Assembly: GCF_012641395.1 (NCBI RefSeq)
Contig: NZ_JABAIH010000002.1
Span: 806,001 to 870,000 of the forward strand
Reading direction: 5' to 3'
Length of the DNA stretch: 64,000 nt
Source: Rhizobium sp. P32RR-XVIII
GTDB lineage: Bacteria > Pseudomonadota > Alphaproteobacteria > Rhizobiales > Rhizobiaceae
In this document: in pieces, positions 26,179 through 43,639 of the stretch
Layout: each line of letters starts with the position of its first letter
How positions within the stretch are numbered: the first letter of the stretch is position 1
The notes under the pieces: generated by a model
Told to the model about the DNA's origin: nothing
What the model saw: the letters and a program-made list of their open reading frames with translations, nothing else
The model's database searches: none
Program-made: the position numbers and the translations under genes

Positions 26179-26196
26179 GTTTACAGTAACGTACTT
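26179..26196 (+). promoter_or_regulatory. Regulon operator/promoter element, site A
   Basis: GTTTACAGTAACGTACTT on the plus strand, 59 bp before the GTG of the 96-aa gene. It is one of four near-identical copies in the window (see 28405, 31433, 39591). The core TTACAGTAA is a 9-bp inverted repeat. Partial CGTAAA and CGTAAG half sites lie 15-45 bp upstream. Confidence 0.75.
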
Positions 26197-26255
26197 ACCT
26201 TTTCCGCGCAGGAGGACATACTTCCGCGACGACCCTGACAGGAGGATCGACGTCC

Positions 26256-26546
26256 GTGAGCAGGCAAGGCGGAGCTGCGGGAAACGCAATCGATGCCGCG
26301 CAGCTGGGGCTGTGGCGGCTGATGCTCAAGTTGCCTGCAATCCGCGGCCGGCTGCAAATGCTTGCTGCGAGATCGAGGCGTCTTGACGATCTCTTCGAAG
26401 CATACGAGGAGGCCAGCCGCACACTCGAACGGCTCCGGAAGGAGAGTAATCTCGCCCTGGCCAACGAATACGACACCGTCTGCTCGGACATCGAGGCGGA
26501 CGTCATCCGTTATGTCCTGCAGGGCTCCGCGGGCGCTCCTGATTGA
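26256..26546 (+). CDS. Small helical protein at head of regulator unit
   Basis: 96 aa from a GTG at 26256; AGGAGG stands about 10 bases upstream. The product is fully soluble and helical: Leu-rich LGLWRLMLKLPAIRGRLQML, then a charged coiled-coil-like part (RRLDDLFEAYEEASRTLERL) and ANEYDTVCSDIEADV. No recognised family. It is the first gene after operator site A and ends 124 bp before the membrane regulator, so both may be on one transcript. The place suggests an accessory role, for example as a partner of the regulator; this is inference. Confidence 0.6.
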   Translation: MSRQGGAAGNAIDAAQLGLWRLMLKLPAIRGRLQMLAARSRRLDDLFEAYEEASRTLERLRKESNLALANEYDTVCSDIEADVIRYVLQGSAGAPD

Positions 26547-26670
26547 CACGCGCATTTCCGAGATTGATCGCGCGTTGGTTTTTATTAGCGTTTCCGGTTG
26601 CAACTCGGTGTCAAGTCGGCGATATATGTTCGCGTTCTACTTTAGTGGCCAATGGGTACGGGCGCGGACC

Positions 26671-28380
26671 ATGAGTGCTGAAGTACACGACGTGGGGACC
26701 CGCGAAGTATCCCTCGAGGAGGCCGGAGCGGAACTGGAGAGGCTTCTTGCCGACGGAAGGTTCCGTGTCTCGGACCGGCAGCGGGAGATCCTGCTATATC
26801 TCGCCGAGCGAAGGCTAGCGGGCTACCAGAAGGGCGTGAAGGCCTATTCGATCGCGCTCGACGTGCTGGGAAGAACCAGCGCCTTCGACGCCGCCAACGA
26901 TCCGATTGTCCGGATAGAGATTAGCCGGCTGAGGACCGCTCTCGACAACTACTACGCCGTTTTCGCCGAAGAGCTCGGAGTCTCGATCCATATTCCCAAG
27001 GGCAGCTACGTGACGCTGTTCCCGAAGACCTCCATCCGGCACGAGCCGGACGACCAGCACCTCGACGACGATGTCGCTGCTGTGTTCGAGGCGGCGCCTG
27101 CGTATCCTTCGGAAATCCGCTCGCCGGTGCAATGGCGGCGCCTGGCGGCACTTGGCGGCATCGGGCTCGTCGTTTGCTTAGCAGCTGCCGCCCTCTACTT
27201 CCGTCCGATCACACCTACAGCTACGGCCAAGCCCACCCTGCTCGTGGCGATGACTGCGGCGTCTGCGGACATGGAGGGCGAGGCGAGCCTGACCCGAGAC
27301 ATGCTGCTGAGCGCCCTGACACAGTTCCAGACCGTGATCGTGGCACGGCCCGGTTCGGTCGCGGGCGGAGCGGGCCGCTCGGACCCGAGCTACGATATCG
27401 AGATGAAATACTACGGGGACGGCGACGACCGCAGCGTATGGTGGCAGGTCGTGGACGGTGTCTCGGGAAATCTCCTGCGTTCCGGCCTCGAGCGGGTGGA
27501 ACTCAGCGGTAAAAGCGCGGCCGCAGTCAGGGAGGAGATGGCGGGAGCGCTCGCGACGCGGGTTGCCTCCTCGCGCGGCGTCATCAACACGATCGAGATG
27601 CAGGACGCCCCGAGAGACGCTCTCGGCAATGGCTGCGTCCTGAGAGCCGAGTATGCGCTCGAGGCCGGTGACGCGGACGACGTCTCCGAGGCGTCCCGCT
27701 GCCTGGAGCGCACTCTCGCCCGGTCGCCGGACGATCCTGACGCCAGCGCGCTGCTTTCCCGCGTCCTCGTCGCCCCACGCGGCCGGCAAGTGAGTCCCGA
27801 AATCGAGGCACGCGCCCTGGATTTCGCGAAGCGGGCCGCCTCGCTTGCGCCGCTGTCGGACAGGGCTCAGACGGCGTTGATGGCCGCGCAGTTCGCAGCC
27901 GGCCGGACGGAGGCGGCCATACAGGCCGGCAACCGGGCGATCGCACTTAACCCTAACAACCCGGAGGCGGCGGCTGCCCTCGGTTTCGTACTCTTCTCGT
28001 CGGGATACTGGGAGGCGGGCGTCGACCTGGCGCGGGACGCCAGTCGCGACCGCGACACCGTGCCCCGCGACGCGATGCTGGTGCTGGCCCTCGACGCCTA
28101 CAGAAACAGCCGGTGGTCGGAAGCCTCGCTTCTCGCGGAACAGGTGAACGGCACCGACTTCCTGGTATGTGCGCTGCGCGTTGCGGCCCTCGGACAGCTT
28201 GGAGCAGAGGACGCGGAGGAAAAGCTGCCGCAGCCGAAGGCCCTGGACCGCGAGTTCGAGCAGGCGTTCCGCCAGCAGATGGCCACCGCCCGGATGCGGC
28301 CGGAGATCGTCGCGGGAATCGAGGCCGGCCTCGCCAAGGCCGGCGCCGACTTTGATGGAGTCGCCAGCATCCGGCCCTAG
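26671..28380 (+). CDS. Membrane-anchored winged-helix regulator with periplasmic TPR-like domain
   Basis: 569 aa from the ATG at 26671 (an in-frame ATG at 26626 is possible). Residues ~30-118 match the winged-helix-like domain seen in rhizobial regulators: VSDRQREILLYLAERRLAG, IVRIEISRLRTALDNYY, then IPKGSYVTLF. A single membrane helix (about 158-177) follows a His/Asp-rich linker. The periplasmic part has a beta-rich section (residues 185-320) and then TPR-like repeats (SDRAQTALMAAQFAAGRTEA; AIALNPNNPEAAAALGFVLF). The layout is like CadC-type one-component regulators: it would sense in the periplasm and bind DNA in the cytoplasm. It lies inside the regulon marked by four shared operators, making it the natural candidate to bind them. 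Confidence 0.8.
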   Translation: MSAEVHDVGTREVSLEEAGAELERLLADGRFRVSDRQREILLYLAERRLAGYQKGVKAYSIALDVLGRTSAFDAANDPIVRIEISRLRTALDNYYAVFAEELGVSIHIPKGSYVTLFPKTSIRHEPDDQHLDDDVAAVFEAAPAYPSEIRSPVQWRRLAALGGIGLVVCLAAAALYFRPITPTATAKPTLLVAMTAASADMEGEASLTRDMLLSALTQFQTVIVARPGSVAGGAGRSDPSYDIEMKYYGDGDDRSVWWQVVDGVSGNLLRSGLERVELSGKSAAAVREEMAGALATRVASSRGVINTIEMQDAPRDALGNGCVLRAEYALEAGDADDVSEASRCLERTLARSPDDPDASALLSRVLVAPRGRQVSPEIEARALDFAKRAASLAPLSDRAQTALMAAQFAAGRTEAAIQAGNRAIALNPNNPEAAAALGFVLFSSGYWEAGVDLARDASRDRDTVPRDAMLVLALDAYRNSRWSEASLLAEQVNGTDFLVCALRVAALGQLGAEDAEEKLPQPKALDREFEQAFRQQMATARMRPEIVAGIEAGLAKAGADFDGVASIRP

Positions 28381-28404
28381 AGTCTGACCCTAATTTACGA
28401 AGGC

Positions 28405-28422
28405 ATTTACAGTTGCGTACTT
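28405..28422 (+). promoter_or_regulatory. Regulon operator/promoter element, site B
   Basis: ATTTACAGTTGCGTACTT, 70 bp before the ATG of the outer-membrane protein. It differs from the other copies at two adjacent core positions (TTG instead of TAA). A TTTACG half site lies exactly 12 bp upstream (28394-28399). Confidence 0.7.
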
Positions 28423-28492
28423 CACGAGAGCACGAATCATGTTTCTATCGTCGTGACAGGCGTTCTTCACGACCTCACAAGGGGAATCTTTG

Positions 28493-29275
28493 ATGCGAAC
28501 TGTTGTCATTGTCCTTTCGGGAATGCTGCTTGCCGCACCCGGTATCTCGCTGGCGGCCGACCCGGCACCTGCCTTCGCGCCCACTCCTGAAACCACGGTG
28601 CAGGACGAATGGAGCTTCTCTTTTGCTCCGTATTTGTGGACTGCCGGGATCTCCGGCGATACCGCCGTCTTCGGGCTGCCGGAGGTCCACATCAATCAAA
28701 GCTTCGGGGACATTCTGGCTGATATCGACTTCGGATTCATGGCGGCAGGAGACGCACGCTATGGCCCCTTCAGCATCGTGACCGACATCGAATATGTGAG
28801 GATTACCTCGGACGCGGCGACGCCGCGTGGCGTGCTGGCGGACGAAGTGGACCTCAAATCCGTGACCTTCACCGCCCTGGTCGGCGCAGGCTACACCGTG
28901 CTCGAGGATCCAAACGGCAGGCTGGATGTCATCGCAGGCCTCAGGGTCTGGTCGGTCGAGACCACGATATCTTTCAGCGGCGGCCCTCTTGGCGGAATTT
29001 CCCGTAGCGACGACGCCACCTGGGTCGATGGGATGGCGGGCGTCCGAGGCGTCTACTCGATCACGCCTACGGTCTATTTGACCGGATGGGGTCTGATCGG
29101 CGCGGGCGGCGCCGACCTCGACTGGGACGTGATGGGGGGCGTTGGCTACAAATGGAAGGAATGGCTCTCTGCGTTCATCGGATATCGCGCACTCGGTGTG
29201 AACTACAGCAACGACAGCCTGACCCAAGATGTCATCGAGCACGGTCCGATCCTCGGCGCCGTGTTCCGCTTTTAA
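28493..29275 (+). CDS. Outer-membrane beta-barrel protein
   Basis: 260 aa from the ATG at 28493, with AGGGGAA upstream. It has a Sec signal (VVIVLSGMLLAAPGISLAAD), then alternating amphipathic beta strands (WSFSFAPYLWTAGISGD; GVGYKWKEWLSAFIGYRALG). It ends in Phe (GAVFRF), the signature for BAM-dependent insertion. The family resembles rhizobial porin-like or OmpW/OmpA-barrel hypothetical proteins of about 8 strands. It has its own operator copy (site B) and follows the regulator, so it may be the route or receptor for the substrate or product of the sulfatase. Convergent with the HAD gene. Confidence 0.8.
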   Translation: MRTVVIVLSGMLLAAPGISLAADPAPAFAPTPETTVQDEWSFSFAPYLWTAGISGDTAVFGLPEVHINQSFGDILADIDFGFMAAGDARYGPFSIVTDIEYVRITSDAATPRGVLADEVDLKSVTFTALVGAGYTVLEDPNGRLDVIAGLRVWSVETTISFSGGPLGGISRSDDATWVDGMAGVRGVYSITPTVYLTGWGLIGAGGADLDWDVMGGVGYKWKEWLSAFIGYRALGVNYSNDSLTQDVIEHGPILGAVFRF

Positions 29276-29286
29276 TCGACGTTCAA

Positions 29287-29320
29287 CTTTGCGGCGGCTT
29301 CGAAACGTGTCGCCGCAAAG
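29287..29320. terminator. Hairpin between convergent regulon units
   Basis: A perfect 10-bp stem CTTTGCGGCG / CGCCGCAAAG with a 14-base loop lies between the outer-membrane protein stop and the HAD gene stop. A likely shared terminator; no long T-run. Confidence 0.6.
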
Positions 29321-29371
29321 GTCCATCGGTTCGCTAATCTGCCGGGGCTCCGGCAAGCGTTCTGATGCAAG

Positions 29372-30385
29372 TCATTGGTTGAAAGCAAAGATCTTCTTCC
29401 AATCGTTCTTCATGTCGACCACCAGCCAATTCCGGAGTTCCGCCTCGTCCAACGCCTTGTCTAGCTTGCCGAACGACGATTGGCGGTCATAGGCGTATTC
29501 GCGGACGCCGTCGGTGTGATGGACGATCATCGCAAATCCTGGTGGTTTTGCTGCTGCCGCCCAGCGTAGCATCTCGTAATCGCCGTCCGAATTTCCGGCG
29601 ACGAAGATGGGCTTGCGGCCGATGAACTTGTTGATACCCACCGGCTTGCCGGGACCGTCGTCGACGAAGTCGATCTTCGGCAGCCGGTTCAGCACCGGCA
29701 CGTCGTCGACGATCGCAAATTCGGTCGTGATGGTGCTGCCGACGACCTGTTCCGGTGGGATACCGTAGAGCTTCTCGGTGACCGGCCGCATGAATTCGAC
29801 GCCGCCCCCCGACACGATGTAGGTCTTGAAGCCGTTGGCGCGCAGATAGTCCAGGAGCTCCCGCATCGGAAGATAGGTCATCTCGGTGTAGAGCTTGCCG
29901 GTCTCCGGATGCTTCGCAGTCGTGAACCAGTCGGTGACGATCGTGTTGAAATGATCCGTCGTCATGCCGGCATGCGTGGCCATGCCGAGTTCGACGATGC
30001 CCATTTCTCCGCCCTTGGCGAGGCCCTTCAGATCGCCCTCGAGAACGCTCTTGAAAGGCTCCTTCGTCTTCCATTCCGGGTGCTCAGGGGCGAGCGTCTT
30101 CACGCGGTCGAGGATGAAACCGAGCTGGATGTAGTAGGGCTGCTCCGTCCAGAGCGTGCCGTCATTGTCGAAGACGGCGATCCGATCTTCGGGTGCGACG
30201 TAGCGTTCCCCGCCTTCTGTGACGGTCGCCTTGACGAAGTCCATGATGCGGCTCTTGGCTGCCGTGTCGTTCCAGGAGGGCAGCGGCTCTTGCGCCAGCG
30301 CTGGCAGGGCGCCGATCACCATCAGCACGAAAGCGACGATGAAGGAGGCGAGGATCGTGTCGACGTCTCTATAGGAGCTTCTCAT
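29372..30385 (-). CDS. Secreted HAD-superfamily hydrolase
   Basis: 337 aa from the ATG at 30385 (GGGGAG ten bases upstream). The N-terminal signal/anchor (ILASFIVAFVLMVIGALPALA) exports it. HAD motif I is DNDGTLW (nucleophile and acid/base Asp), motif II is YIVSGGG, motif III Lys is in the NKFIGRKP region, and motif IV is GNSDGDYEML. It belongs to the phosphoserine-phosphatase-like group, so a periplasmic phosphatase is likely. It starts 28 bp after the FGE gene stop and shares its transcript from operator site C. A phosphatase partnered with a sulfatase could act in sequence on an anionic substrate. Confidence 0.88.
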   Translation of the reverse strand: MRSSYRDVDTILASFIVAFVLMVIGALPALAQEPLPSWNDTAAKSRIMDFVKATVTEGGERYVAPEDRIAVFDNDGTLWTEQPYYIQLGFILDRVKTLAPEHPEWKTKEPFKSVLEGDLKGLAKGGEMGIVELGMATHAGMTTDHFNTIVTDWFTTAKHPETGKLYTEMTYLPMRELLDYLRANGFKTYIVSGGGVEFMRPVTEKLYGIPPEQVVGSTITTEFAIVDDVPVLNRLPKIDFVDDGPGKPVGINKFIGRKPIFVAGNSDGDYEMLRWAAAAKPPGFAMIVHHTDGVREYAYDRQSSFGKLDKALDEAELRNWLVVDMKNDWKKIFAFNQ

Positions 30386-30413
30386 CGTGTTTCTCCCCAA
30401 ATCATTTGTTTCG

Positions 30414-31379
30414 TTATCGCGGCATTCTTTTCACACAGCGGAAGCCGACATGGCTCGTTGACGTGTCCTCGGGTTCGGCATGGCGGGCGGCGGGGCGGTA
30501 GCGGCGGCAATAGTTCGGGGCGCAGAGATGCGAGCCGCCCTTCAAGACGCGCCGCGGAATCCGGATCGCCGGCTGGTTGGGATCGTAGCTCGCCTCGGCA
30601 TCGCCGCCGCGCGGGTTCTTCGGAATGCAGCAGGCCTTGGCGACGGGTTCGGGATGCCGCGTGCTCCAGTAGTCGCTGGTCCATTCCCAGACGTTGCCGA
30701 TCATGTCGTAGAGCCCGTAGCCGTTCGATGGAAACGACCGCACCGGCGACGTGCGCTCATGGCCCTTCGGCTTCGTTGAGTAGGTCGGGAAGGTACCTTG
30801 CCAGGTATTGGCCATGATCTCGCCGCCGGGTGTCATCTCCTCGCCCCAGGCGAACTCGGTGTCTTCGAGCCCGCCGCGGGCGGCAAACTCCCATTCGGCC
30901 TCCGTCGGCAGGTCAAGCCCGGCCCAATCGGCGTAAGCCCTGGCGTCCGACCAGGCGATGTGGATGACCGGATGGTCGAGCTTGCCGCGCAGGTCGCTCA
31001 AGCCCCCGAGTGGTCGGCGCCAGTTCGCGCCGAATTTGAAGGTCCACCACTGGGAAATGTCCGGTCCGCTGACGCCTTTCGGCTGGACGAAGAGCAGGGA
31101 GCCCGCGCGCAGCATCTCGGGAAGGGCGCCCGGATAGTCCTTGGCGTCCGGCACCTTTTCGGCCATCGTGACGTGGCCGGCGGCCTTGACGAACTCCATG
31201 AATTTGCGGTTCGTCACCGGCGTTTCGTCGATCCAGAACCCGTCGACGGTGACCGGATGGGCAGGCGCCTCCTCCGGATAGTGCCGATCCGAGCCCATCG
31301 TGAAGGTGCCGCCGGGAATCCAGACCATGCCGTCTGGTGCAGCGCCCGAGGTTGGAACGTCGTCGAATGCCGAAGCCAT
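30414..31379 (-). CDS. Formylglycine-generating enzyme (sulfatase-modifying factor)
   Basis: 321 aa, no signal peptide, so cytoplasmic. FGE oxidises the sulfatase-motif Cys to C-alpha-formylglycine before export, using O2 and Cu. Family hallmarks are MVWIPGGTFTMGSD at the N-terminus, LPTEAEWEFAARGG, GLYDMIGNVWEWTSDYW, and the C-terminal active site KGGSHLCAPNYCRRYRPAAR. Both catalytic cysteines, C286 and C291, have the same five-residue spacing as in human SUMF1. This separates it from the many FGE-fold proteins that lack the Cys pair. First gene of the unit under operator site C, upstream of the HAD gene. Confidence 0.92.
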   Translation of the reverse strand: MASAFDDVPTSGAAPDGMVWIPGGTFTMGSDRHYPEEAPAHPVTVDGFWIDETPVTNRKFMEFVKAAGHVTMAEKVPDAKDYPGALPEMLRAGSLLFVQPKGVSGPDISQWWTFKFGANWRRPLGGLSDLRGKLDHPVIHIAWSDARAYADWAGLDLPTEAEWEFAARGGLEDTEFAWGEEMTPGGEIMANTWQGTFPTYSTKPKGHERTSPVRSFPSNGYGLYDMIGNVWEWTSDYWSTRHPEPVAKACCIPKNPRGGDAEASYDPNQPAIRIPRRVLKGGSHLCAPNYCRRYRPAARHAEPEDTSTSHVGFRCVKRMPR

Positions 31380-31432
31380 CGTCGCCTCCGGTTCAAGATG
31401 CTGCCAGCATCGCGCGTGAAGGGAAGGGGCGG

Positions 31433-31450
31433 AAGTACGTTACAGTAAAT
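31433..31450 (-). promoter_or_regulatory. Regulon operator/promoter element, site C
   Basis: Minus strand ATTTACTGTAACGTACTT, 53 bp before the ATG of the FGE gene and just after the stop of the upstream sulfatase operon. Additional ATTTACG and inverted CGTAAA half sites lie within 40 bp upstream. Confidence 0.75.
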
Positions 31451-31492
31451 GCGGGCGTCGTTTACGCAAGCAGGAACGTAAATGAGGGTAGA

Positions 31493-32782
31493 TTACCGCT
31501 GCTGACCGGACGGATTCAACGGCGGCAGAAGCTCGGAATTCATGACGGATACGGCCCTTCGGAAATCTATGGATTTCTGGAGAACGTGCCGATCGACCTT
31601 GGAATCGTCGGATCGGAACAGGCTCCGGGAGAGGAGATCCACCTGCAGCCGGAGATCTCTCGGCCCATCGTTCGCCCAGTCTTCCAGCGAGCGGTATCCC
31701 TGGTCGCGGCTCCACTCCTGCAGTCCGGCATAGACGGCCATCTCGTCGGCCGATCCGATCGTCTTCTTGAGCTGGCGCAGGCGGAAGGCGTGGGAGGCGC
31801 GGTATCGCTGGCGAAGCCGGCGAACGCGTTCGACCAAGAGAGGGGCGAGCCGCCGTCCGAGCCACACGAGCGCGGCAGCTGCGAGCAGCGAGAGCATGCC
31901 TATCGCCAGCCTCTGCCTGTCGACGTGCGCGGGGCGGCCGTCGTCCTGCGCGCCCGCGTCCGGTGCGATGGTCTGGCGTATCGGTGCCGGCGCTACGGTG
32001 ACCGGGACGGCGGGAAGGGAGGCCGTATCCTCCCGATGGCTGTCGACATCGAACCAGTCGTAATCGATCTCGGGAAGCGTATAGGTTCCGACCGCGTCGG
32101 CCGTATATACGACGGTCTCGGTCCTCCGGCTGGCCATCGCCCTTCCGATGGCGATGCCGTCTTCGATCTTGGGCTGCTTCACATATTCGTGGAGCCCAGC
32201 CACCGTTCCGCCTCGCACGGCAGGAATCATCATGGCTTGAGTGTCCTCGGCGGTGATGGTGATCGTCCGGACGAGGGCGTCTCCCGCCTTCAGCGACGCC
32301 GGATCGCGGTCGAACGTCTGTCCTATGGTCAGTTTGCGCGCTGCGAAGGCGACCCGCTCCTGCATGCCGGGGCTTCCCTGGACCACGAAGGAGACCGACG
32401 GCGCTGTGACGACACCGCGGGCGGGCTTGCCATCGGCCGAGTAGCCGAGCTCCATTTCGATCGGCGGGACGACGTAGCGGCCGGGCATTTGGGGCACGAC
32501 CGCGTAACGTCTCCGGATTCCGGAATACTGGACCCCGTCCACCGTCTGGAGGAGGTTTTGCGCGCGTTCGTCTGGAAGCGTAACGAGCGCGTTCGGAAGA
32601 TCAAACAGCGGAAACTGCGGAGGCGAGGTGAAGAAGTCCGGCGCGAAGACGTCCACCGTGACGTACACCTGCCGTCCGGGAACAATGTCGCCGCCGTCGT
32701 CGACCGTCGCCTGCGCGAAGGGTTCTGCCGCCAGCGCCTGCAGCGGCGTCAGGAGAAGGAATAGTAGAAAGGTCAGTCTCAT
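31493..32782 (-). CDS. BatD-like membrane protein
   Basis: 429 aa with a Sec signal (LTFLLFLLLTPLQALA), periplasmic Ig-like beta domains (VTVDVFAPDFFTSPP; RRYAVVPQMPGRYVVPP), one membrane helix near residue 300 (IGMLSLLAAAALVWLG) and a basic cytoplasmic tail of about 115 residues. This is the BatD layout from MoxR-VWA operons, though sequence conservation in BatD is low. It is the last gene of the sulfatase operon, overlapping the VWA/TPR gene by 4 bp (ATGA). It probably forms a membrane complex with the two VWA proteins. Confidence 0.82.
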   Translation of the reverse strand: MRLTFLLFLLLTPLQALAAEPFAQATVDDGGDIVPGRQVYVTVDVFAPDFFTSPPQFPLFDLPNALVTLPDERAQNLLQTVDGVQYSGIRRRYAVVPQMPGRYVVPPIEMELGYSADGKPARGVVTAPSVSFVVQGSPGMQERVAFAARKLTIGQTFDRDPASLKAGDALVRTITITAEDTQAMMIPAVRGGTVAGLHEYVKQPKIEDGIAIGRAMASRRTETVVYTADAVGTYTLPEIDYDWFDVDSHREDTASLPAVPVTVAPAPIRQTIAPDAGAQDDGRPAHVDRQRLAIGMLSLLAAAALVWLGRRLAPLLVERVRRLRQRYRASHAFRLRQLKKTIGSADEMAVYAGLQEWSRDQGYRSLEDWANDGPRDLRLQVDLLSRSLFRSDDSKVDRHVLQKSIDFRRAVSVMNSELLPPLNPSGQQR

Positions 32783-34332
32783 GGCGTCGCCTTCCGATCC
32801 TCAAGCGCGAACTTCCGCGTCATCAGGTCAGCGGGGCTCACCTGGATGTTCTTCATCCACATCTCCGACGTCTGCTCGGCAGCGTTGACCTGCCCCGCCT
32901 TGCCTTGCTTGCCCTTGTCGTCGAACTGGACGCTGTCCGGCTTCTGGTTCGGGTCCTGCTGCTGCTCCTCGTCCTCCTCTTGCTTTTGCTTCAGCAGCTG
33001 CTCGGCAATGCCGAGATTTGCCTCTGCCTCCGTCCAGCCTTTTCGTTTCTGCAGCGCCTTGCCGTAGGCGGTGACGGCTTCTTCGAACTCTCCGAGGTGG
33101 AGGAGGGCATTGCCCTGATCGAACCAGCTTTCGGCGGTGTCGATATTGGCCAAGGAATCGACCGCATCCTGGAACCGGCCGGCCCGGTACAGGGCGACGC
33201 CTTTCCACATCGGGTCCTTGAAATGCATCGAAGCTGACGCGAAGTCTCCGCGCTCGAAGGCGAGGCGGCCTTGCTGGTCGGGCGTCAGCCACATATCCAC
33301 AAGGCTTGCAGCCTCGGCGGGTGCCGGGGAAAGGAGCCTTGCGCAGGCGAGCAGCACCGCGACCTTCACAACCCATCCGCGGCGGAATGAAAGCCCAAGC
33401 AGCAATGCCACGGGAATAAGGAGCCACCATCCGAAATCCCGCCAGCGATCGCCCTCCTTCGCCGCCTGCTGGGCGAAATTCCTTCGCACGTGCTGGGCTA
33501 TCCATCGGACATCGGAATCGTCGTCGGTGATGGTTGCGACGCCGGCTCCCGTCTCGCTTCCGAACTGTTTCAGGCCATCGAGATCGAGTTTCGAGACGAC
33601 CCTGTCTCCGCCGGTGCCGGTCAGGAAGCCGCCGTCCGCCTGCTTGACGAGCCCGCCTTCCGCGGTGCCGACGCCGAGGACGAGGATGCCGCTGCCGATC
33701 TCTTTGGCCGAAGCGTTGGCCGCCTCTTCGACACCGTCGGTCATGAGAAGGATCGTGCCCGAAGAGCCATCCGCCTTCAGGAGGCTATCCGCAAGCCTCA
33801 GAGCAGCCGCGGTGTCCTTGCCGGGCTTGGGCATGATGCCGGTCGCCAGCGCATCGGTGTAGGTTTGGATGAGCGCGTCGTCCTCTGTGAGCGGCACCAC
33901 GAGATGGGCGGTGCCCGAATAGGCGACCACGGCCGTGCGCGCTCCATCCCGGGCCGCCAGAATGTCATGGATCTTCAGCTTCGCACGTTCGATGCGGCTC
34001 GGACTGATATCCACGGCGTCCATCGTGGGCGAGAGGTCGACGGCGATGACGAGCGAGGCTGTGTCCGAGACGAAGGGTGGGGCTTCGCGCTGCCAGGTTG
34101 GCCCGGCCACCCCGAGGACGGCCAATGCCATGAGCGCGGCTATCATCCAGGCCGGTTTCAGCTGATTGCGCCGATCCGGCTCGATGACGAGACTGTCGAG
34201 CAGGTGCGGCGCGAGCATGCCTTTCCATCGGCTTCGGATGTCGCCCGAGTGCGCGGCGAGCCAGACAATCACCGGCGGCACGATCAGCGCGAGAAGCCAC
34301 CAGGGCCGGAGGAAATGGAAGTCGGCGATCAC
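32779..34332 (-). CDS. VWA-TPR membrane protein (BatB/BatC-like fusion)
   Basis: 517 aa from the GTG at 34332, which overlaps the stop of the previous gene (GTGA). Two N-terminal membrane helices (WWLLALIVPPVIVWLA; AWMIAALMALAVLGVAG) precede a VWA domain with a MIDAS motif D99-L-S-P-T, a Thr replacing the usual second Ser, and TDGVEE. A third helix comes near residue 300. TPR repeats follow (FERGDFASASMHF; WFDQGNALLHLGEFEEAVTA), then a Gln/Glu-rich low-complexity tail. In Bacteroides-type operons BatB (VWA) and BatC (TPR) are separate; here they are fused. Function: membrane-linked protein assembly or chaperone work with MoxR, inferred. Confidence 0.85.
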   Translation of the reverse strand: MIADFHFLRPWWLLALIVPPVIVWLAAHSGDIRSRWKGMLAPHLLDSLVIEPDRRNQLKPAWMIAALMALAVLGVAGPTWQREAPPFVSDTASLVIAVDLSPTMDAVDISPSRIERAKLKIHDILAARDGARTAVVAYSGTAHLVVPLTEDDALIQTYTDALATGIMPKPGKDTAAALRLADSLLKADGSSGTILLMTDGVEEAANASAKEIGSGILVLGVGTAEGGLVKQADGGFLTGTGGDRVVSKLDLDGLKQFGSETGAGVATITDDDSDVRWIAQHVRRNFAQQAAKEGDRWRDFGWWLLIPVALLLGLSFRRGWVVKVAVLLACARLLSPAPAEAASLVDMWLTPDQQGRLAFERGDFASASMHFKDPMWKGVALYRAGRFQDAVDSLANIDTAESWFDQGNALLHLGEFEEAVTAYGKALQKRKGWTEAEANLGIAEQLLKQKQEEDEEQQQDPNQKPDSVQFDDKGKQGKAGQVNAAEQTSEMWMKNIQVSPADLMTRKFALEDRKATP

Positions 34333-35318
34333 GCGACGGCCCTCCGTCGAACGAGCCCGATCGCTCCAGCGACGCAGTACCAACCTGCCAGCAAGGTCAC
34401 GGCTGCAGCGAGCGGCCAATGGAAGAGTTCGGTCCGTGGCCGCCAGGAAAGGTTCTTCTGGTCCTCCGGCGTGATGGTATCGAGTTCCGCGTAGATGGCA
34501 GCCAGTTGATCTTGATCGCCGCCGAAGAAGTATCGTCCACCTGTGCCGGCGGCGATTTTCTGCAGCGTCGTCGTATCGAGCTTGTCCTCGCCCGTGGCGG
34601 CAGGATCCCCGATGCCGACAGCGTGGATCACGATGCTTTTTGCCTTGGCCACCTCGGCAGCCTTCAGCGGCGGCATCTTGCTTGCGGTGTCATTGCCGTC
34701 GGTGAGGACGATCAGCACTTTTTCCGGAACGGTTGTCTTGTCGAACATCCGAATGGCCAATCCGAGGGAATCTCCGAGCGCAGTCCTGGGGCCGGCGATG
34801 CCCGGAAGCAGGCCGTCGACCATGGTGCGGACGAGCTCGTGATCCATGGTGAAGGGCGCCAGAGGGTAGGGTGCATCGCCGAAGGCGATCAGTCCGATCC
34901 GGTCACCTGTCCGCCTCTCGATGAAATCGGCGACGACCTGCCGGACCGCGTCGACGCGAGGCTCGAGCGTCCCGCCGGGGGCGCGAAAGTCCTTGGTGTC
35001 CATCGACTGCGACAGGTCGAGCGCCAGCAAGATGTCGCGTTGCGGCTCCGTCTTGTCGATCGGCGGCTCGACGAACTGGGGGCGGGCGAGCGCCAGGACG
35101 ACCAGGCACCAGGCAAGGCCCTCGACGATCGCCTGCGGCCAGGAGCGGCGAGGAACAACCGAGCCCTCGGTCGGACTCATGCCTGCTGCCTTTGCGACGA
35201 GTTCGAAGAACGGCAGGCGGATGGAGGCGGAGGTTTCGCGGTGGGGCGGCAGCAGCCACCAGACAAGCAGCGGCGCCGGCAAGAGAAGAAGCAGCCCTGG
35301 AAGGTCAAGTTGGTACAT
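34329..35318 (-). CDS. VWA-domain membrane protein (BatA-like)
   Basis: 329 aa from the ATG at 35318, overlapping the DUF4381 stop by 14 bp. N-terminal helices (LLLLLPAPLLVWWLL) lead to a VWA domain with a complete MIDAS: D101-L-S-Q-S, a Thr in the GPRTALGDSL loop and TDGND. It ends with a membrane helix (WPLAAAVTLLAGWYCVAGAI). The VWA domain should face the cytoplasm or periplasm next to MoxR and DUF58 partners. The start replaces a longer frame whose first 40 residues are out of family. Confidence 0.88.
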   Translation of the reverse strand: MYQLDLPGLLLLLPAPLLVWWLLPPHRETSASIRLPFFELVAKAAGMSPTEGSVVPRRSWPQAIVEGLAWCLVVLALARPQFVEPPIDKTEPQRDILLALDLSQSMDTKDFRAPGGTLEPRVDAVRQVVADFIERRTGDRIGLIAFGDAPYPLAPFTMDHELVRTMVDGLLPGIAGPRTALGDSLGLAIRMFDKTTVPEKVLIVLTDGNDTASKMPPLKAAEVAKAKSIVIHAVGIGDPAATGEDKLDTTTLQKIAAGTGGRYFFGGDQDQLAAIYAELDTITPEDQKNLSWRPRTELFHWPLAAAVTLLAGWYCVAGAIGLVRRRAVA

Positions 35319-35826
35319 GGTGCTTCTCGATCCAGCGGCGGGCGCCGAGCAGGAGATCGTCGCCCACGCTCGGCGAGAGGGCGGCGAGTGACCCTTCGTC
35401 ACGATACTCGAAGTCGTCGAACAACCGCTCCAATGCATGGCCTTCGCCTACTTCTGCGGAGCCATCCAGGAATTCGTTCCAATGCGGGCCGGCCAGCGAC
35501 GCCACCCGCTCGCGAGGCCAGACGGCAAGCGCCGTCCGTTTCAACACCTCGGCAAGGCCTTGAAGGCCGCGCTTGCGCGTCAGGGGAGTACGGATGTCGC
35601 TGGCGACGGCGTCCAGCAGGCGTAGCGCCTCCCGGCGATAGGCATTGCGGCGGTAGCGTCTCAGCGCGAGGAAAGCTGAGGCGAGCAGAGCCACGAGAAG
35701 GATTGCCGCGAGTGCCGCCCACCCCCAGGTCTGCGGCATCCATGAAACCGGCGGCGGAACCGCGATGTCGTGCAGCGAGCGCAGTGCGGTTTCCGTTATC
35801 GGGTCGAGCTTGGGGTTGGGCTCCAT
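35305..35826 (-). CDS. DUF4381 membrane protein
   Basis: 173 aa from the ATG at 35826, which overlaps the DUF58 stop (TGATG). A short N-terminus ITETALRSLHDIAVPPPVSW (the DUF4381 hallmark ending in PPPVSWWP-type residues) precedes one membrane helix (WGWAALAAILLVALLASAFL) and a helical cytoplasmic domain rich in Arg (RRYRRNAYRREALRLLD). Function unknown; found almost only in MoxR-DUF58-VWA operons, where it is presumed to be a scaffold of the complex. Confidence 0.85.
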   Translation of the reverse strand: MEPNPKLDPITETALRSLHDIAVPPPVSWMPQTWGWAALAAILLVALLASAFLALRRYRRNAYRREALRLLDAVASDIRTPLTRKRGLQGLAEVLKRTALAVWPRERVASLAGPHWNEFLDGSAEVGEGHALERLFDDFEYRDEGSLAALSPSVGDDLLLGARRWIEKHHVPT

Positions 35827-36772
35827 CAGTGCCTCCGTTGCCGCCAAGCCGATTGCTCGAGGAGGCGACGAAGCTGGGGCGCGGTTTCCTCCGCTGCCGA
35901 TACCGGCAGCATCGGAAGGCCGAGATCCTTCTGCCAGGCGCGCAGGTCCCTGCCACGGTTGCGGGCAAACGCATCGACGGAGCCGCGAACGGAACTTCGT
36001 CCGAGCGCAAGCTCCGCCTGCAATGTGCCGCCACTGACGACGATCTCGCCGCTCGTCGGCAGTTCCAGCAGAAAGGGATCGTAGACAAGCAGGCAGATGA
36101 CATCGTTGCGGCCGGAAAGCCTGAGCAGGAGATTTCGCGTGGTCTCGCCATAGCCGTCGAAATCACTGACGACGATCACCAGATGGTCGTGATGGGCGAT
36201 GCTGGCGACCTTATGCAGCGCGTCGTCCAGTGCCGCGGGCGAGGGCGTAACGGCATAGGTGGCGGAGAGCTGCGCATTCTTTTCCGCAATTCGGTTGGCG
36301 AGTGCGATGACGGCATTGCGGCTGCGGTGCGGCTTGACCTCATCGGTGCCGGCATCGCCGAAGACGAAGCCGCCGACCCGGTCGCCGGAACCGAGAATGC
36401 GCCAGGCGCAGAGCACGGCCGCCTCGGCCGCCGTGACGGATTTCATCGACCGGCGGCTGCCGAAGAACATGTTGATCCGCTGATCGACGACGAGGATTGC
36501 CGGGCGCTCCTTCTCCTCGCCGTATACGCGGACGACCGGCCTGCTGGTGCGGGCCGTCACGCGCCAGTCGATCGAGCGGATGTCGTCGCCCGGCAGATAT
36601 TCACGCAGCTCCTCGAATATGAGGCCGCGGCCACGCAGCGACGATTGCATGCGCCCTGCAAGCTGCTGATGGCTGCGGGCCTTCTGGACGAAGCTCAGGT
36701 CGCGGGCGCGGGCTTCGAGAGCGACGAGCTGTTCAGTCGTCACGTAGACACCGCCGCTGACCTTTGCCCCGG

Positions 36773-36776
<4 letters not shown>
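35826..36776 (-). CDS. DUF58 protein (VWA-like)
   Basis: 316 aa, soluble. The hallmark DUF58 block is GRGLIFEELREYLPGDDIRS, then IDWRVTARTSRPVVRVYGEE. A VWA-like half follows (AILVVDQRINMFFGS; LVIVVSDFDGYGETTRNLL), in which MIDAS residues are partly lost, as usual. It overlaps moxR by 4 bp. DUF58 proteins almost always accompany MoxR ATPases and are thought to link the ATPase to the membrane VWA proteins. Confidence 0.9.
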
Positions 36777-37750
<974 letters not shown>

Positions 37751-37819
37751 ATGCGCTCCACGGATTTCCGGATGGCGAACGCGGCGACCGACCGCGCCCG
37801 CTTTTGTCGATACCGCGCG

Positions 37820-39463
37820 TTAGCGCGCCGCGGCCGGGCTCTGTTCCAGCGACCGCATCAGTGCCTCGACCATCTGGTCAACGCTGAAGCTTGCAGGGCG
37901 TTGGCTCGGCGGATAGTCGCGGAAAGTCTGAAGGAACGGGGCCACCCGCCAGACGCCGTACTGAAGGAGGTAGGCGTTCTTGGCCAGCCAGTCGTAGTAC
38001 TGGTCGGATACCACGTCAGCTCGCTCGTAGGGGTCCATCCTCAAGTTGAAGACCTTCGGCGCGCGCAGGCAGACGAAGGGGTTGGCCCACACCACGAAGC
38101 CGCCCGGCTCCCGCTGCTCGCAGAAGACGATCTTCCAGTTGCCGTAGCGGTAAGCGACAAGCTCGCCGTCGTCGTTGAAGTAAAAGAATTCATCACGCGA
38201 CGACTTGCTATCCTGGCCCGTCAGATACGGGAGTTGGTTATAGCCGTCGAGATGGACCTTGAACTGGTTGCCGCCGATCGTCGAGCCTTTCACGAGCTTG
38301 TCCTTGATGTCGGGATCGCCAGCGGCTGCAAGCAAGGTCGGGAACCAGTCCAGTCCGGACATCATCTGGTTCGAGACCTCGCCGGCCTTGATGTGTCCTG
38401 GCCAGCGAACCATTGCCGGAACGCGGAACGCGCCTTCCCAGTTGGTGTCCTTCTCGCTGCGGAACGATGTGGTGGCGGCATCCGGCCATGACCACTGGTT
38501 GGGACCGTTGTCGGTGGTGTAGACGACGATTGTGTTGTCGGTGATACCAAGATCGTCGAGGCTTTTCAGCAGCTTGCCGACGTCGCCGTCATGCTCGACC
38601 ATGCCATCGGCATACTCGTTGCCCGGCATCCCGCTTTGCCCCTTCATCGATTCCCGCACATGCGTGAAGACGTGCATGCGGGTCGTGTTCATCCAGGTGA
38701 AGAAGGGCTTTCCGGCCTTCACCTGCCGGTCCATGAAGTCGATCGCCGCCGCGGTCGTCTCGTCGTCGATCGTCTCCATGCGCTTTGTGGTCAGCGCGCC
38801 GGTATCCTCGATCTTGCCGTCTGCTGACGCTTTCAGGACGCCGCGCGGTGAATTCGTGCGCACGAATTCCTGATCGTCTTTGGGATAGTAAGGCCGCTCC
38901 GGCTCCTCCTCGGCATTCAGATGATAGAGATTGCCGAAGAACTCGTCGAAACCGTGATTGGTCGGCAGGAACTCGTCGCGGTCGCCGAGATGGTTCTTGC
39001 CGAACTGGCCCGTCGCATAGCCAAGCGGCTTGAGGGCTTGGGCGATGGTGATGTCACGCGGCTGGAGACCCACCGTGGCTCCTGGGATGCCGACCTTGCA
39101 GAGGCCGGTGCGCAGGCAGACCTGGCCGGTGATGAAGGTGGAGCGCCCAGCCGTGCAGGAGTTCTCGGCATAGTAATCCGTGAACATCATGCCTTCCTTG
39201 GCGATACGATCGATATTCGGCGTGCGGTAGCCCATCACGCCGAACGAATAGGCGCTGATGTTGGTCTGCCCGATATCGTCGCCGAAGATGACGAGGATGT
39301 TCGGCTTTGACGTGTCCTGGGGCGCCGCGGGTTCGGCGGCGGGCGGCGGTGTTGCAGGCGTTTGCTGCTGAGCCCTTGCCGCCGTGAGGAATGTTGTCGA
39401 TGCCAGCGACATGGCGACGGCGGCCGTTGCGGTGAGAAATCTTCCGGAGAGTTTCGTGCCCAT
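37820..39463 (-). CDS. Secreted arylsulfatase, Cys type
   Basis: 547 aa from the ATG at 39463 (GGGAGGAC upstream; a GTG lies one codon earlier). It has a Sec signal (FLTATAAVAMSLASTTFLTAARA) and a Pro/Ala linker. The alkaline-phosphatase-fold sulfatase domain carries Asp ligands in FGDDIGQTN (residues 62-63), the formylglycine motif C103-T-A-G-R in ENSCTAGRST, and TTDNGPNQ (metal Asp/Asn). The motif is C-x-A-x-R rather than the more common C-x-P-x-R, which FGE also accepts. It cleaves sulfate esters in the periplasm; the substrate is unknown. It is the first gene under operator D, and its maturase is in the unit under site C. Confidence 0.93.
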   Translation of the reverse strand: MGTKLSGRFLTATAAVAMSLASTTFLTAARAQQQTPATPPPAAEPAAPQDTSKPNILVIFGDDIGQTNISAYSFGVMGYRTPNIDRIAKEGMMFTDYYAENSCTAGRSTFITGQVCLRTGLCKVGIPGATVGLQPRDITIAQALKPLGYATGQFGKNHLGDRDEFLPTNHGFDEFFGNLYHLNAEEEPERPYYPKDDQEFVRTNSPRGVLKASADGKIEDTGALTTKRMETIDDETTAAAIDFMDRQVKAGKPFFTWMNTTRMHVFTHVRESMKGQSGMPGNEYADGMVEHDGDVGKLLKSLDDLGITDNTIVVYTTDNGPNQWSWPDAATTSFRSEKDTNWEGAFRVPAMVRWPGHIKAGEVSNQMMSGLDWFPTLLAAAGDPDIKDKLVKGSTIGGNQFKVHLDGYNQLPYLTGQDSKSSRDEFFYFNDDGELVAYRYGNWKIVFCEQREPGGFVVWANPFVCLRAPKVFNLRMDPYERADVVSDQYYDWLAKNAYLLQYGVWRVAPFLQTFRDYPPSQRPASFSVDQMVEALMRSLEQSPAAAR

Positions 39464-39590
39464 CACGTCCTCCCGGCTTTCAGGTCGTCCAACATTACGC
39501 TCTCCCTTATATCCGGCAGGGTACGGCCATGCCTGAACTGGATCGTCGTCATTCGACCTGGAGAGACTTCTCCTTAAACTGCCTTTGCGG

Positions 39591-39608
39591 AAGTACGTTA
39601 CAGTAAAC
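39591..39608 (-). promoter_or_regulatory. Regulon operator/promoter element, site D
   Basis: Minus strand GTTTACTGTAACGTACTT, 127 bp before the ATG of the sulfatase gene. Same core as site C except for the first base. Together with sites A and B it defines the shared control of the region. Confidence 0.75.
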
Positions 39609-39696: not shown

Positions 39697-40599
39697 TTAG
39701 GTCATCCACTTGCGATGTTCGACGAACCGTTCGGCGAGCAGATCGATGAACAGACGGACTTTTGTCGGCAGATGGCTTCTGTTCGGGTACACGGCGTTGA
39801 TCACGAATTCCACGCCCCGGTAGCCGGAGAGCAGGCGGATGAGCCGGCCTTCGGCCAGGTCTTCCGATACGACGAAGCTCGGGGCGAGCCAGACCGCTCG
39901 CCCGCTGATGGCCAGATACCTCAGTGTCTCGGCGCTGTTCGAGACGACCGAGCCGTTGATCTTCACCTGGGTCCGGTCGCCCCTTTCCGTCTCGAAGGTC
40001 CATTCGTCGCCGTACGGATAATACGTGTATTGAAGGCAGTCGTGACCGGAAAGATCGCCGGGAGTTTCCGGAGCCTTATGTGCTTCGAGGTAGGAAGGCG
40101 AGCACACGAGCACATGCCTCCATGGCGTGAGCTTTCTGGCGATCAGGCTGGAGTCGGGTGAGGGAACCGGGCGGATGGCAAGGTCATATCCATCTTCGAT
40201 CATGTCGATCATCCGCTCGCCGGTGATCATGTTGAGTGAGACGGAAGGATAGAGCTCGAGGAACTCGTCGATGACAGGCAGAAGGAAGGGTACGACTGCG
40301 GTTGTTGAATGGAGCTTGAGAACTCCGCGCGGCGTCGTGGTCAGTGCTCCTGCCGCGCGGTCGGCCTCCTCGAGATCGGCAAGGATCTGGGCGGACCGGT
40401 CGTAGTAGAACTTGCCGGTCTCCGTTAGGCTGACCTTGCGCGTTGTCCGGTTCAGAAGTCGGACGCCCAGCCTCTCTTCCAATGACTGCACATGGGTGGC
40501 GACCATCGTCACCGACATGTTCAGGCGGCGCGCCGCCGCGCTGAAACCGCCGCATTCAACGACCTTTCCGAAGACCGAAAGACTTGTCAGCCGGTCCAT
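39697..40599 (-). CDS. LysR-family transcriptional regulator
   Basis: 300 aa from the ATG at 40599, with AGGAGG nine bases upstream. N-terminal winged helix-turn-helix (LTSLSVFGKVVECGGFSAAA, SLEERLGVRLLNRTTRKVSL) and a C-terminal periplasmic-binding-like effector domain (GVLKLHSTTAVVPFLLPVID). It is divergent from the emrA-like gene across 138 bp, the classic position for a LysR regulator of a pump. It also ends 90 bp from regulon site D but is in another unit. Confidence 0.93.
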   Translation of the reverse strand: MDRLTSLSVFGKVVECGGFSAAARRLNMSVTMVATHVQSLEERLGVRLLNRTTRKVSLTETGKFYYDRSAQILADLEEADRAAGALTTTPRGVLKLHSTTAVVPFLLPVIDEFLELYPSVSLNMITGERMIDMIEDGYDLAIRPVPSPDSSLIARKLTPWRHVLVCSPSYLEAHKAPETPGDLSGHDCLQYTYYPYGDEWTFETERGDRTQVKINGSVVSNSAETLRYLAISGRAVWLAPSFVVSEDLAEGRLIRLLSGYRGVEFVINAVYPNRSHLPTKVRLFIDLLAERFVEHRKWMT

Positions 40600-40610
40600 G
40601 CCCACCTCCT

Positions 40611-40658
40611 GATTATCCGCTCTCAGCGTATGATCCTTACCGATATACGCGGATTATC
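40611..40658. promoter_or_regulatory. Candidate LysR operator between lysR and emrA
   Basis: GATTATCCGC (40611-40620) and GCGGATTATC (40649-40658) form a nearly perfect inverted pair around the divergent promoters. The same GGATTATCC/GGATAATCC motif recurs between emrA and emrB at 41913-41941. Confidence 0.5.
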
Positions 40659-40737
40659 AATCGATGAATAGCGGGGCATCTTCACGCCATTCAAGCAAGC
40701 CCGCGCTCGTTGCGCGCGAAACCGCAGGAGAATTGAC

Positions 40738-41913
40738 ATGGTTGAGCTGCCTCGCAAGGAGGTGTTCGAGACTTCCGCCGAAGCCGACACGAAGATCAAA
40801 GACATCCCATCCGTGCCCGAGCAGAAGCCGGTCCCCGCACCGCCGGCGACTGCCAAGTCGCGGAAGGGCGGCGTCAAGAAGGCAGTGATTCTGGCCGTTC
40901 TTCTCGCCGGCGCAGCCTACGGCGTCCATTTCGGCCACCACTACTGGACCGTCGGCCGCTTTATCGAATCCACCGATGACGCCTACGTGAAGGCGGACTA
41001 TACGACAATCGCTCCGAAGGTCGCCGGCTACATCAAGGACGTCCTCGTCAACGACAACGACGTCGTAAAGGCCGGGCAGGTGCTCGCCCGGATCGACGAC
41101 CGCGACTTCCAGGCCGCCCTCAACCAGGCGAAGGCCGACGTGAAGGCCGCGGAGGCAGCGATCACGAACATCGACGCCCAGGTCGACCTGCAGCAATCGA
41201 TCATCGGTCAGGCGAAGGCCTCGCTCGGCGCCTCCCAGGCCTCGCTGGTTTTTGCAAAGTCCGATGCCGCCAGAAACGCCCGCCTCACGACCAATGGCGC
41301 TGGTACGCAATCCCGCGCCGAGCAGAGCCAGTCGCTGATGGATCAGGCTTCCGCCGCAGTCGAACGCGACCAGGCGGCCGTCGTCGCCGCCCAGAACAAG
41401 GTGCCCGTGCTCAAGACGCAGCGCAATCAGGCGGTCGCCCAGAGGGATCGGGCCCTTGCCGTCGCCCATCAGGCCGAGCTCAACCTCTCCTATACGAACA
41501 TCGTCGCCGCTGTGGATGGCACGGTCGGAGCCCGTTCGATCCGCGTCGGACAGTTCGTGACCTCCGGCACGCAGCTGATGGCGATCGTTCCGCTGCATTC
41601 GGTCTACATTGTCGCCAACTTCAAGGAGACGCAGCTCACCTACGTGCAGCCCGGACAGCCGGTCGAGATCAAGGTCGACAGCTTTCCCGATCTCGAAGTC
41701 AAGGGGCACGTCGACAGTGTCTCGCCCGCGAGCGGTCTCGAGTTCTCGCTGCTGCCTCCGGACAATGCGACGGGTAACTTCACGAAGATCGTCCAGCGTA
41801 TTCCGGTCAAGATCGTCATCGACGACGAGGACCTCGCCGGCCGTCTTCGCTCCGGCATGTCCGTCGAACCCGAGGTCGACACCAAGGCCGCGCAGCTATC
41901 GGAAGGGAAGTGA
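40738..41913 (+). CDS. EmrA-type membrane fusion protein
   Basis: 391 aa, ribosome site AGGAGAA. A basic cytoplasmic N-terminus (residues 1-45, Pro/Lys-rich) and one membrane helix (AVILAVLLAGAAYGVHFG) precede ESTDDAYVKADYTTIAPKVA, the diagnostic EmrA lipoyl motif. A long coiled coil (about 110-240), the second lipoyl half (NIVAAVDGTVGARSIRVGQ) and a beta-barrel (IVANFKETQLTYVQPGQPVE) follow. It links the MFS pump encoded next to an outer-membrane channel. Divergent from the LysR gene. Confidence 0.93.
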   Translation: MVELPRKEVFETSAEADTKIKDIPSVPEQKPVPAPPATAKSRKGGVKKAVILAVLLAGAAYGVHFGHHYWTVGRFIESTDDAYVKADYTTIAPKVAGYIKDVLVNDNDVVKAGQVLARIDDRDFQAALNQAKADVKAAEAAITNIDAQVDLQQSIIGQAKASLGASQASLVFAKSDAARNARLTTNGAGTQSRAEQSQSLMDQASAAVERDQAAVVAAQNKVPVLKTQRNQAVAQRDRALAVAHQAELNLSYTNIVAAVDGTVGARSIRVGQFVTSGTQLMAIVPLHSVYIVANFKETQLTYVQPGQPVEIKVDSFPDLEVKGHVDSVSPASGLEFSLLPPDNATGNFTKIVQRIPVKIVIDDEDLAGRLRSGMSVEPEVDTKAAQLSEGK

Positions 41914-41941
41914 GGATTATCCAACCCCACCGGATAATCCT
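41913..41941 (+). promoter_or_regulatory. 10-bp inverted repeat between emrA and emrB
   Basis: AGGATTATCC and GGATAATCCT around a 9-base spacer begin at the last base of the emrA stop codon. It could be a hairpin in the mRNA or a second binding site for the regulator, since the sequence matches the sites at 40611 and 40649. Confidence 0.45.
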
Positions 41942-42012
41942 TCCGTTCCTTTCCCGATTATCGACCACCCAGCGTCATGAGAGATTCCGGACCAGCCGGA
42001 AGGAGAAAAGTC

Positions 42013-43629: not shown

Positions 43630-43639
43630 GGAGATGGAG

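Follow-up and report, generated by a model that had tools for sequence, protein, structure and literature searches.

Does a short DNA element repeated around a sulfatase locus of Rhizobium sp. P32RR-XVIII mark a single regulon, and if so, which protein reads it? The locus lies in a 64,000-nt window of contig NZ_JABAIH010000002.1 (GCF_012641395.1, positions 806,001-870,000). The first-pass annotation had described four directed copies of an 18-bp element, too many for chance, 53-127 bp before units encoding a membrane regulator, an outer-membrane protein, a formylglycine-generating enzyme (FGE) plus a HAD enzyme, and a sulfatase plus a MoxR/VWA module, and had proposed one inducible system. Allowing up to three mismatches, RTTTACWGTAACGTACTT indeed had exactly four matches in the window and none in 100 dinucleotide shuffles of it, and each copy was oriented toward a separate unit at a measured start-codon gap of 53-124 nt (Table 1). 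The shuffles, together with the lack of any reversed-control match in 148 genomes, rule out a chance origin of the element. The two core changes noted in copy 2 were also found (two mismatches, GTTGC in place of GTAAC), and this variant is accepted among relatives, 28% of 123 sites having G where the second change lies. The first unit does hold the membrane regulator, but as the second gene, after a gene encoding a conserved 96-aa protein.

Many unrelated copies, which would have refuted the idea of a regulon, were not found in the 7.19-Mb source genome. At up to three mismatches, RTTTACWGTAACGTACTT matched nine times, but a single three-mismatch match means little because the reversed control also gave five matches. 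The relaxed form DTTTACNGTWRCGTACTT had seven exact copies, each ahead of a gene or unit, versus none for its reversed control. Three of the seven were located outside the window, before a second sulfatase gene (start 76 nt after the copy), a DUF1254/DUF1214 gene, and a gene for a membrane-protein-like product with a transglycosylase-domain gene behind it. The regulon is wider than first claimed, adding the second sulfatase and the DUF1254/DUF1214 gene. Two matches beyond DTTTACNGTWRCGTACTT, C22:689588 and C77:141284 (the latter within an open reading frame, ORF), look like chance. In this assembly, the DUF1254/DUF1214 gene behind its copy (C22:543263; L011 7264-8748) was seemingly split over two frames, and the membrane-protein-like gene (C55:209370; L010 6034-7388) over two overlapping frames.

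With one mismatch allowed, the element occurred in 15 of 41 genomes (source included), in which the reversed control gave 10 matches, whereas the exact relaxed element was present in 58 of 148 Rhizobium genomes and its reversed control in none. An ortholog of the regulator at an identity of at least 44% was found in 50 of the 148 genomes (in two pieces in G135), and the search in relatives showed that the element follows it: the exact relaxed element was present in all 50 genomes with the close regulator versus 8 of the 98 others (Fisher p 2e-31, relatedness ignored, the two genome lists having been crossed by hand). An FGE of at least 77% identity was encoded by all 50 close-regulator genomes, G060 having an interrupted and G003 a partial gene, and by a further 14 that lacked the close regulator. 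Because only two of these 14 (G071 and G160) held the exact element, the element tracks the regulator more than the target gene (50/50 versus 2/14 among FGE-bearing genomes; Fisher p 3e-11). A one-mismatch copy preceded the FGE gene of G011.

Three regulator-bearing genomes (G057, G108 and G155) had a single copy. The eight genomes with the element and without the close regulator held one (G071, G109 and G152), two (G016, G123 and G160), four (G149) or eight copies (G114). A split 40% relative of the regulator was located near the copy in G071. In G114, what looks by eye like a relic of the regulator N-domain, and a MoxR fragment, were seen near intact copies (C3; L072 8827-10873); tblastn at 1e-4 found no regulator in this stretch, and the locus is perhaps a decaying module. 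In G016 (L037/L076), the sulfatase frame behind an element copy ended early.

On plasmids of Sinorhizobium, Neorhizobium, two Agrobacterium and Phyllobacterium, the regulator had the same or a one-mismatch element beside it; the regulon spans several Rhizobiaceae genera and Phyllobacterium. Relatives of the regulator occurred on 267 plasmid records, and the system was patchy among species; a scan of genome contigs with a single protein matched one locus only (L051). The genes right behind the copies in relatives encoded both sulfatase types, FGE and MoxR (named by eye from sequence) as well as, according to Pfam, DUF1254/DUF1214, DUF900 alpha/beta hydrolase, alkyl-sulfatase-type and transglycosylase-domain proteins. 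In Neorhizobium, a one-mismatch copy preceded an annotated mechanosensitive channel gene; a similar channel-like gene at L041 had no Pfam match over 461 residues.

The small gene was also linked to the regulator. It was located directly upstream of the close regulator in 44 of 48 loci (some of which overlap), the four exceptions coming from two genomes, G077 and G008, that carry it elsewhere. It preceded the regulator in all 11 loci with a 35-43% regulator and was directly upstream of the paralog regulators in none of 18 loci, one further locus leaving too little room to tell.

Thirteen loci with divergent regulators (L055-L057, L100, L110-L117 and L121), grouped beforehand, each contained two to six strict palindromes (G[TA][TA]ACnGT[AT]AC), where 0-0.15 were expected; at most twelve of these loci are distinct, L113 and L057 apparently representing one plasmid. 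The loci of 35-41% regulators held GTWACnGTWAC palindromes, with CGTACTT following in only some copies. Among the paralog loci (L122-L129 and L077), seven of nine were without a strict palindrome, and L123 and L077 had one each. Position 85 of the predicted recognition helix was S in all 36 close sequences (EISRLR in the source protein), whereas the ten divergent sequences read EATRLR or EANRLR and the twenty paralogs mostly EAGRIR or EAGRLR. As far as these sequences tell, the site changes with the regulator subfamily, which supports the regulator as the likely controller of the element. L121 and L149 have paralog-type helices and yet palindromes nearby, and covariation of regulator and site does not explain them. 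L118, L119 and L120 (0, 1 and 1 palindromes) were rejected as intermediate regulators in view of these counts and their paralog-type helices.

To describe the promoters, 129 unique sites (97 exact and 32 with one mismatch, a few of them chance matches from distant genomes) were collected, of which 123 were non-redundant. The conserved block ran from the start of the element to about +19. A −10-like box (.A...T) was found at offsets 39, 38 and 40 in 51, 29 and 15 of the 123 sites (overlaps possible), compared with a mean of 5.8 per offset. At the divergent sites, it peaked at palindrome offsets 38 and 39 (16 and 13 of 84 oriented windows; next peak 11 at offset 51, mean 3.7). In the window, copies 1, 3 and 4 were followed by CATACT (26217-26222), GATGCT and AAGTCT, and copy 2 showed a poorer fit to this spacing. 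Such a fixed distance is as expected for a promoter-proximal activator. A transcription start some 7 nt downstream of the −10 box would center the element near −42, which is the position of a class II activator; the adjoining −35 hexamer (TTCCGC) is poor. A direct repeat of TTTAC, 11-12 nt upstream of the element, was only weakly conserved over the 123 sites and is not claimed as a part of it.

We consider it likely that the CadC-like regulator (26671-28380), with its predicted membrane anchor, binds the four elements; it is predicted to recruit RNA polymerase and so to switch on its own operon and the three other units. It would contact the core GTTACnGTAAC through its predicted winged helix, with helix 78-98 serving in recognition, and, with the element centered near −42 and overlapping the poor −35, it would act as a class II activator. 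The exported-protein, FGE-HAD and sulfatase-MoxR-VWA units would thereby be turned on jointly with the regulator operon. The periplasmic TPR half would serve as the sensor, either of the envelope or of a compound, and FGE would activate the sulfatases.

A repressor, either the same or another regulator, could also have its operator in a palindromic core that overlaps the −35 region, with the units de-repressed upon a signal. However, the poor −35 and the fixed distance to the −10-like box are activator-like, and CadC, an architectural relative of the regulator, is described as an activator in the part of PMC5430869 consulted; we therefore regard a repressor as improbable. Because the highly conserved CGTACTTCC lies about 17-18 nt before the −10-like box, the element might instead be the −35 region for an alternative sigma factor of the extracytoplasmic function (ECF) type, with the regulator a mere neighbor. 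Against this, the divergent-regulator loci keep GTWACnGTWAC and a similar −10 spacing but only a part of their copies retain CGTACTT, the 20 window ORFs scanned (part of the window) included no ECF sigma gene, and the presence of the element follows the winged-helix regulator, all of which makes a sigma factor very unlikely. A TetR-type operator was rejected, there being no TetR gene among the same 20 ORFs. Dispersal of the copies as repeats of a mobile element without a regulatory role, which the plasmid records and the patchy distribution might suggest, can be dismissed for practical purposes, since only about 20 bp are conserved between unrelated flanks (123 contexts less than 75% alike), the −10-like box lies at a fixed distance, and an ORF start lies within 200 nt downstream in 112 of 151 non-redundant sites versus 50 of 151 in the reverse direction (30 of the 151 being inside an ORF of at least 150 aa; crude ORF caller, divergent pairs included).

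In the structure model of the regulator, the N-domain (about residues 15-119) was predicted to be an OmpR/PhoB-type winged helix, as in CadC/ToxR-like regulators, with helix 78-98 as the predicted recognition helix; a hydrophobic helix (159-176) is the predicted membrane helix, and the putative periplasmic half was modeled as an alpha/beta plus TPR part resembling CadC. For this half, Foldseek ranked the CadC periplasmic domain (3ly7) second (E 1.5e-6, TMt 0.41), with a root-mean-square deviation of 18 over 294 columns and many other TPR proteins matching as well, and the matches of the full model in VIA-align were likewise filled by TPR proteins. For the N-domain, the ToxR/TcpP complex 9gds appeared at rank 20 (E 1.6), a PDB sequence search returned two matches only (E 0.3 and 0.89), and residues 1-125 had no match to Pfam Trans_reg_C (PF00486) at E ≤ 10, although the filters of HMMER remove most matches weaker than about 0.1.

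The regulator shares with Escherichia coli CadC and Vibrio ToxR a predicted cytoplasmic OmpR-type winged helix and may also share a single membrane helix and a periplasmic half, but it differs from them in the lack of a Trans_reg_C match, in its targets and site, and in the conserved small gene ahead of it. The DNA-binding domains of OmpR and CadC have an N-terminal beta sheet, whereas the model of this one has none. Unlike OmpR/PhoB-family response regulators, the protein has a predicted membrane anchor and no receiver domain was found in it, and its core site is an 11-bp inverted repeat and not the tandem direct repeats usual for that family.

The contents of the units are listed in Table 1. 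Pfam matches were found for the FGE-like protein and for the sulfatase plus MoxR/VWA unit. The supposed outer-membrane protein is exported and barrel-like by eye, and its only Pfam support is a weak match. The PF03781 domain is also found in other enzymes, and the FGE assignment is a putative one made from sequence; the sulfatase at 37820..39466 carries the C-x-[PA]-x-R signature. Its unit is ordered sulfatase-MoxR-DUF58-VWA-VWA-BatD, and thus resembles the Bat/MoxR-DUF58-VWA-BatD operons, in which MoxR, DUF58, two VWA proteins and BatD follow in the same order, but here the operon is led by a sulfatase gene and tied to FGE and a membrane regulator.

Table 1. Element copies and genes of the sulfatase locus (positions in the 64,000-nt window)
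Feature	Position	Strand	Remarks
Element copy 1, GTTTACAGTAACGTACTT	26179..26196	+	59 nt before GTG at 26256 (small gene/regulator unit)
Conserved 96-aa small protein	26256..26546	+	First gene of regulator unit; no Pfam match
Membrane regulator, 569 aa	26671..28380	+	Predicted winged helix, membrane helix, CadC-like periplasmic part
Element copy 2, ATTTACAGTTGCGTACTT	28405..28422	+	70 nt before ATG at 28493 (exported-protein gene)
Exported barrel-like protein, 260 aa	28493..29275	+	Named by eye; weak DUF481 match, E 0.059
HAD hydrolase	29372..30400	-	Downstream of FGE
FGE-like protein	30414..31379	-	PF03781 (FGE-sulfatase domain), E 1.6e-82
Element copy 3, ATTTACTGTAACGTACTT	31433..31450	-	53 nt before FGE start at 31379
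BatD-like protein	31493..32782	-	Last of sulfatase operon; BatD, E 2.9e-7
VWA-TPR protein	32779..34419	-	VWA matches in window: VWA 3.5e-18, VWA_2 3.8e-15
VWA-domain protein	34329..35438	-	VWA matches in window: as above
DUF58 protein	35826..36776	-	DUF58, E 2.9e-35
MoxR-family AAA ATPase	36773..37750	-	AAA_3, E 1.9e-63
Type I sulfatase	37820..39466	-	PF00884, E 1.6e-47; CTAGR formylglycine signature at residue 104
Element copy 4, GTTTACTGTAACGTACTT	39591..39608	-	124 nt before sulfatase start at 39466
LysR (-), HlyD (+), DHA2 MFS (+) cluster	39697..43629		Adjoins regulon; no element copy within

A homologous module was found in R. johnstonii 3841 (formerly R. leguminosarum bv. viciae 3841), its regulator being encoded at C1:2021924-2023606. 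This genome, G041, was recognized from two 6-kb stretches that were 100% identical, at the same coordinates, to NC_008379.1 and NC_008382.1. TGTWACNGTWACA occurred at nine places in it (reversed control one), seven of them in a 20-kb module with two arylsulfatase genes, the longest ORFs of which started 75 and 112 nt after a site. Of the remaining two sites, one preceded a DUF3300 gene by 181 nt. The other (C1:3034924; L149 1501-3013) separates an HlyD gene from a further member of the regulator family, which has a paralog-type helix, and cross-regulation is possible. Assigning RL numbers from gene order, the RL1910-RL1925 genes appear to lie in the module; the separation of RL1911 and RL1918 by six genes fits this assignment because the sister locus L057 has six genes after its arylsulfatase gene (MoxR, DUF58, DUF4381, VWA, VWA and BatD).

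Array fold changes of strain 3841 under 0.72 mM salicylate (array accession E-MTAB-2187) are given in Table 1 of PMC4136779: RL1910 (2.2-fold, p 0.0549), RL1911 (arylsulfatase; 7.7-fold, p 0.0312), RL1917 (2.7-fold, p 0.0718), RL1918 (exported arylsulfatase; 4.3-fold, p 0.0859), RL1924 (3.4-fold, p 0.1454) and RL1925 (4.1-fold, p 0.1013). Only RL1911, one of the six, passed p ≤ 0.05. RL1924 and RL1925 also stand at −3.2 in a table line in the section of PMC4149787 on praR mutation. The arrays suggest that the salicylate response of 3841 takes in the two arylsulfatases and their neighbors, which gene order assigns to the homologous module; the parts of PMC4136779 consulted characterize salRAB and name no motif or regulator for RL1910-RL1925. 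Of the one inducible system first proposed, the single regulon holds, and the membrane regulator is its likely controller in view of the co-occurrence, the predicted DNA-binding fold and the site that changes with the regulator subfamily; for inducibility, the evidence is indirect and consists of this array.

The LysR/HlyD/MFS cluster that adjoins the regulon had its best HlyD match in G041 in the salRAB locus (LysR 73%, HlyD 77-80%, and MFS 91% over 420 residues), at which four of the five published salRAB primers were found. In R. johnstonii 3841, salRAB is the system for salicylate efflux (PMC4136779). The linkage of the module with salRAB-like genes in the window is suggestive of salicylate as the signal, although not proof; the units may perhaps respond to plant compounds, for example salicylic acid. 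An adenylate/guanylate cyclase-domain protein (43634-44866) is encoded immediately after the MFS gene of the window; the salRAB stretch used for the comparison reaches as far as the interior of MFS.

In a broader reading, which we hold with evenly divided confidence, GTTACnGTAAC is the box of an uncharacterized family of one-component activators that are anchored in the membrane and have a DNA-binding domain without a Pfam model; through it they control, across Rhizobiaceae, an envelope regulon that is inherited patchily and responds to plant phenolics (sulfatases and their activating enzyme, MoxR-VWA, DUF1254/DUF1214 proteins and others), regulator and box having diverged in step. Given such joint divergence, a handful of residues in a single helix (S85 to T/N to G) would be enough to read the recognition code. 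The kind of regulator, a membrane-anchored winged-helix protein, is known; the subfamily, the site and the target set look new within the literature searched. No description of the element or the regulator was found there, most subscription journals being outside its scope, and the main texts of PMC4941405 and PMC2912261 contained none of the terms looked for. For a poorly named regulator family, there is now a likely DNA site along with a list of targets and a candidate inducer. If true, sulfatase maturation, MoxR-VWA complexes and DUF1254/DUF1214 proteins would be joined in one envelope response of bacteria associated with plants, and the idea is directly testable in R. johnstonii 3841, for which mutants are already reported in the sources consulted.

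Members of the regulator family are mostly named 'hypothetical', 'tetratricopeptide repeat' or 'adenylate cyclase' proteins in the sources. In several genomes (L122, L125, L104 and L105), a short and a long regulator of the family were located close together in opposite directions, and these opposed pairs represent another uncharacterized system.
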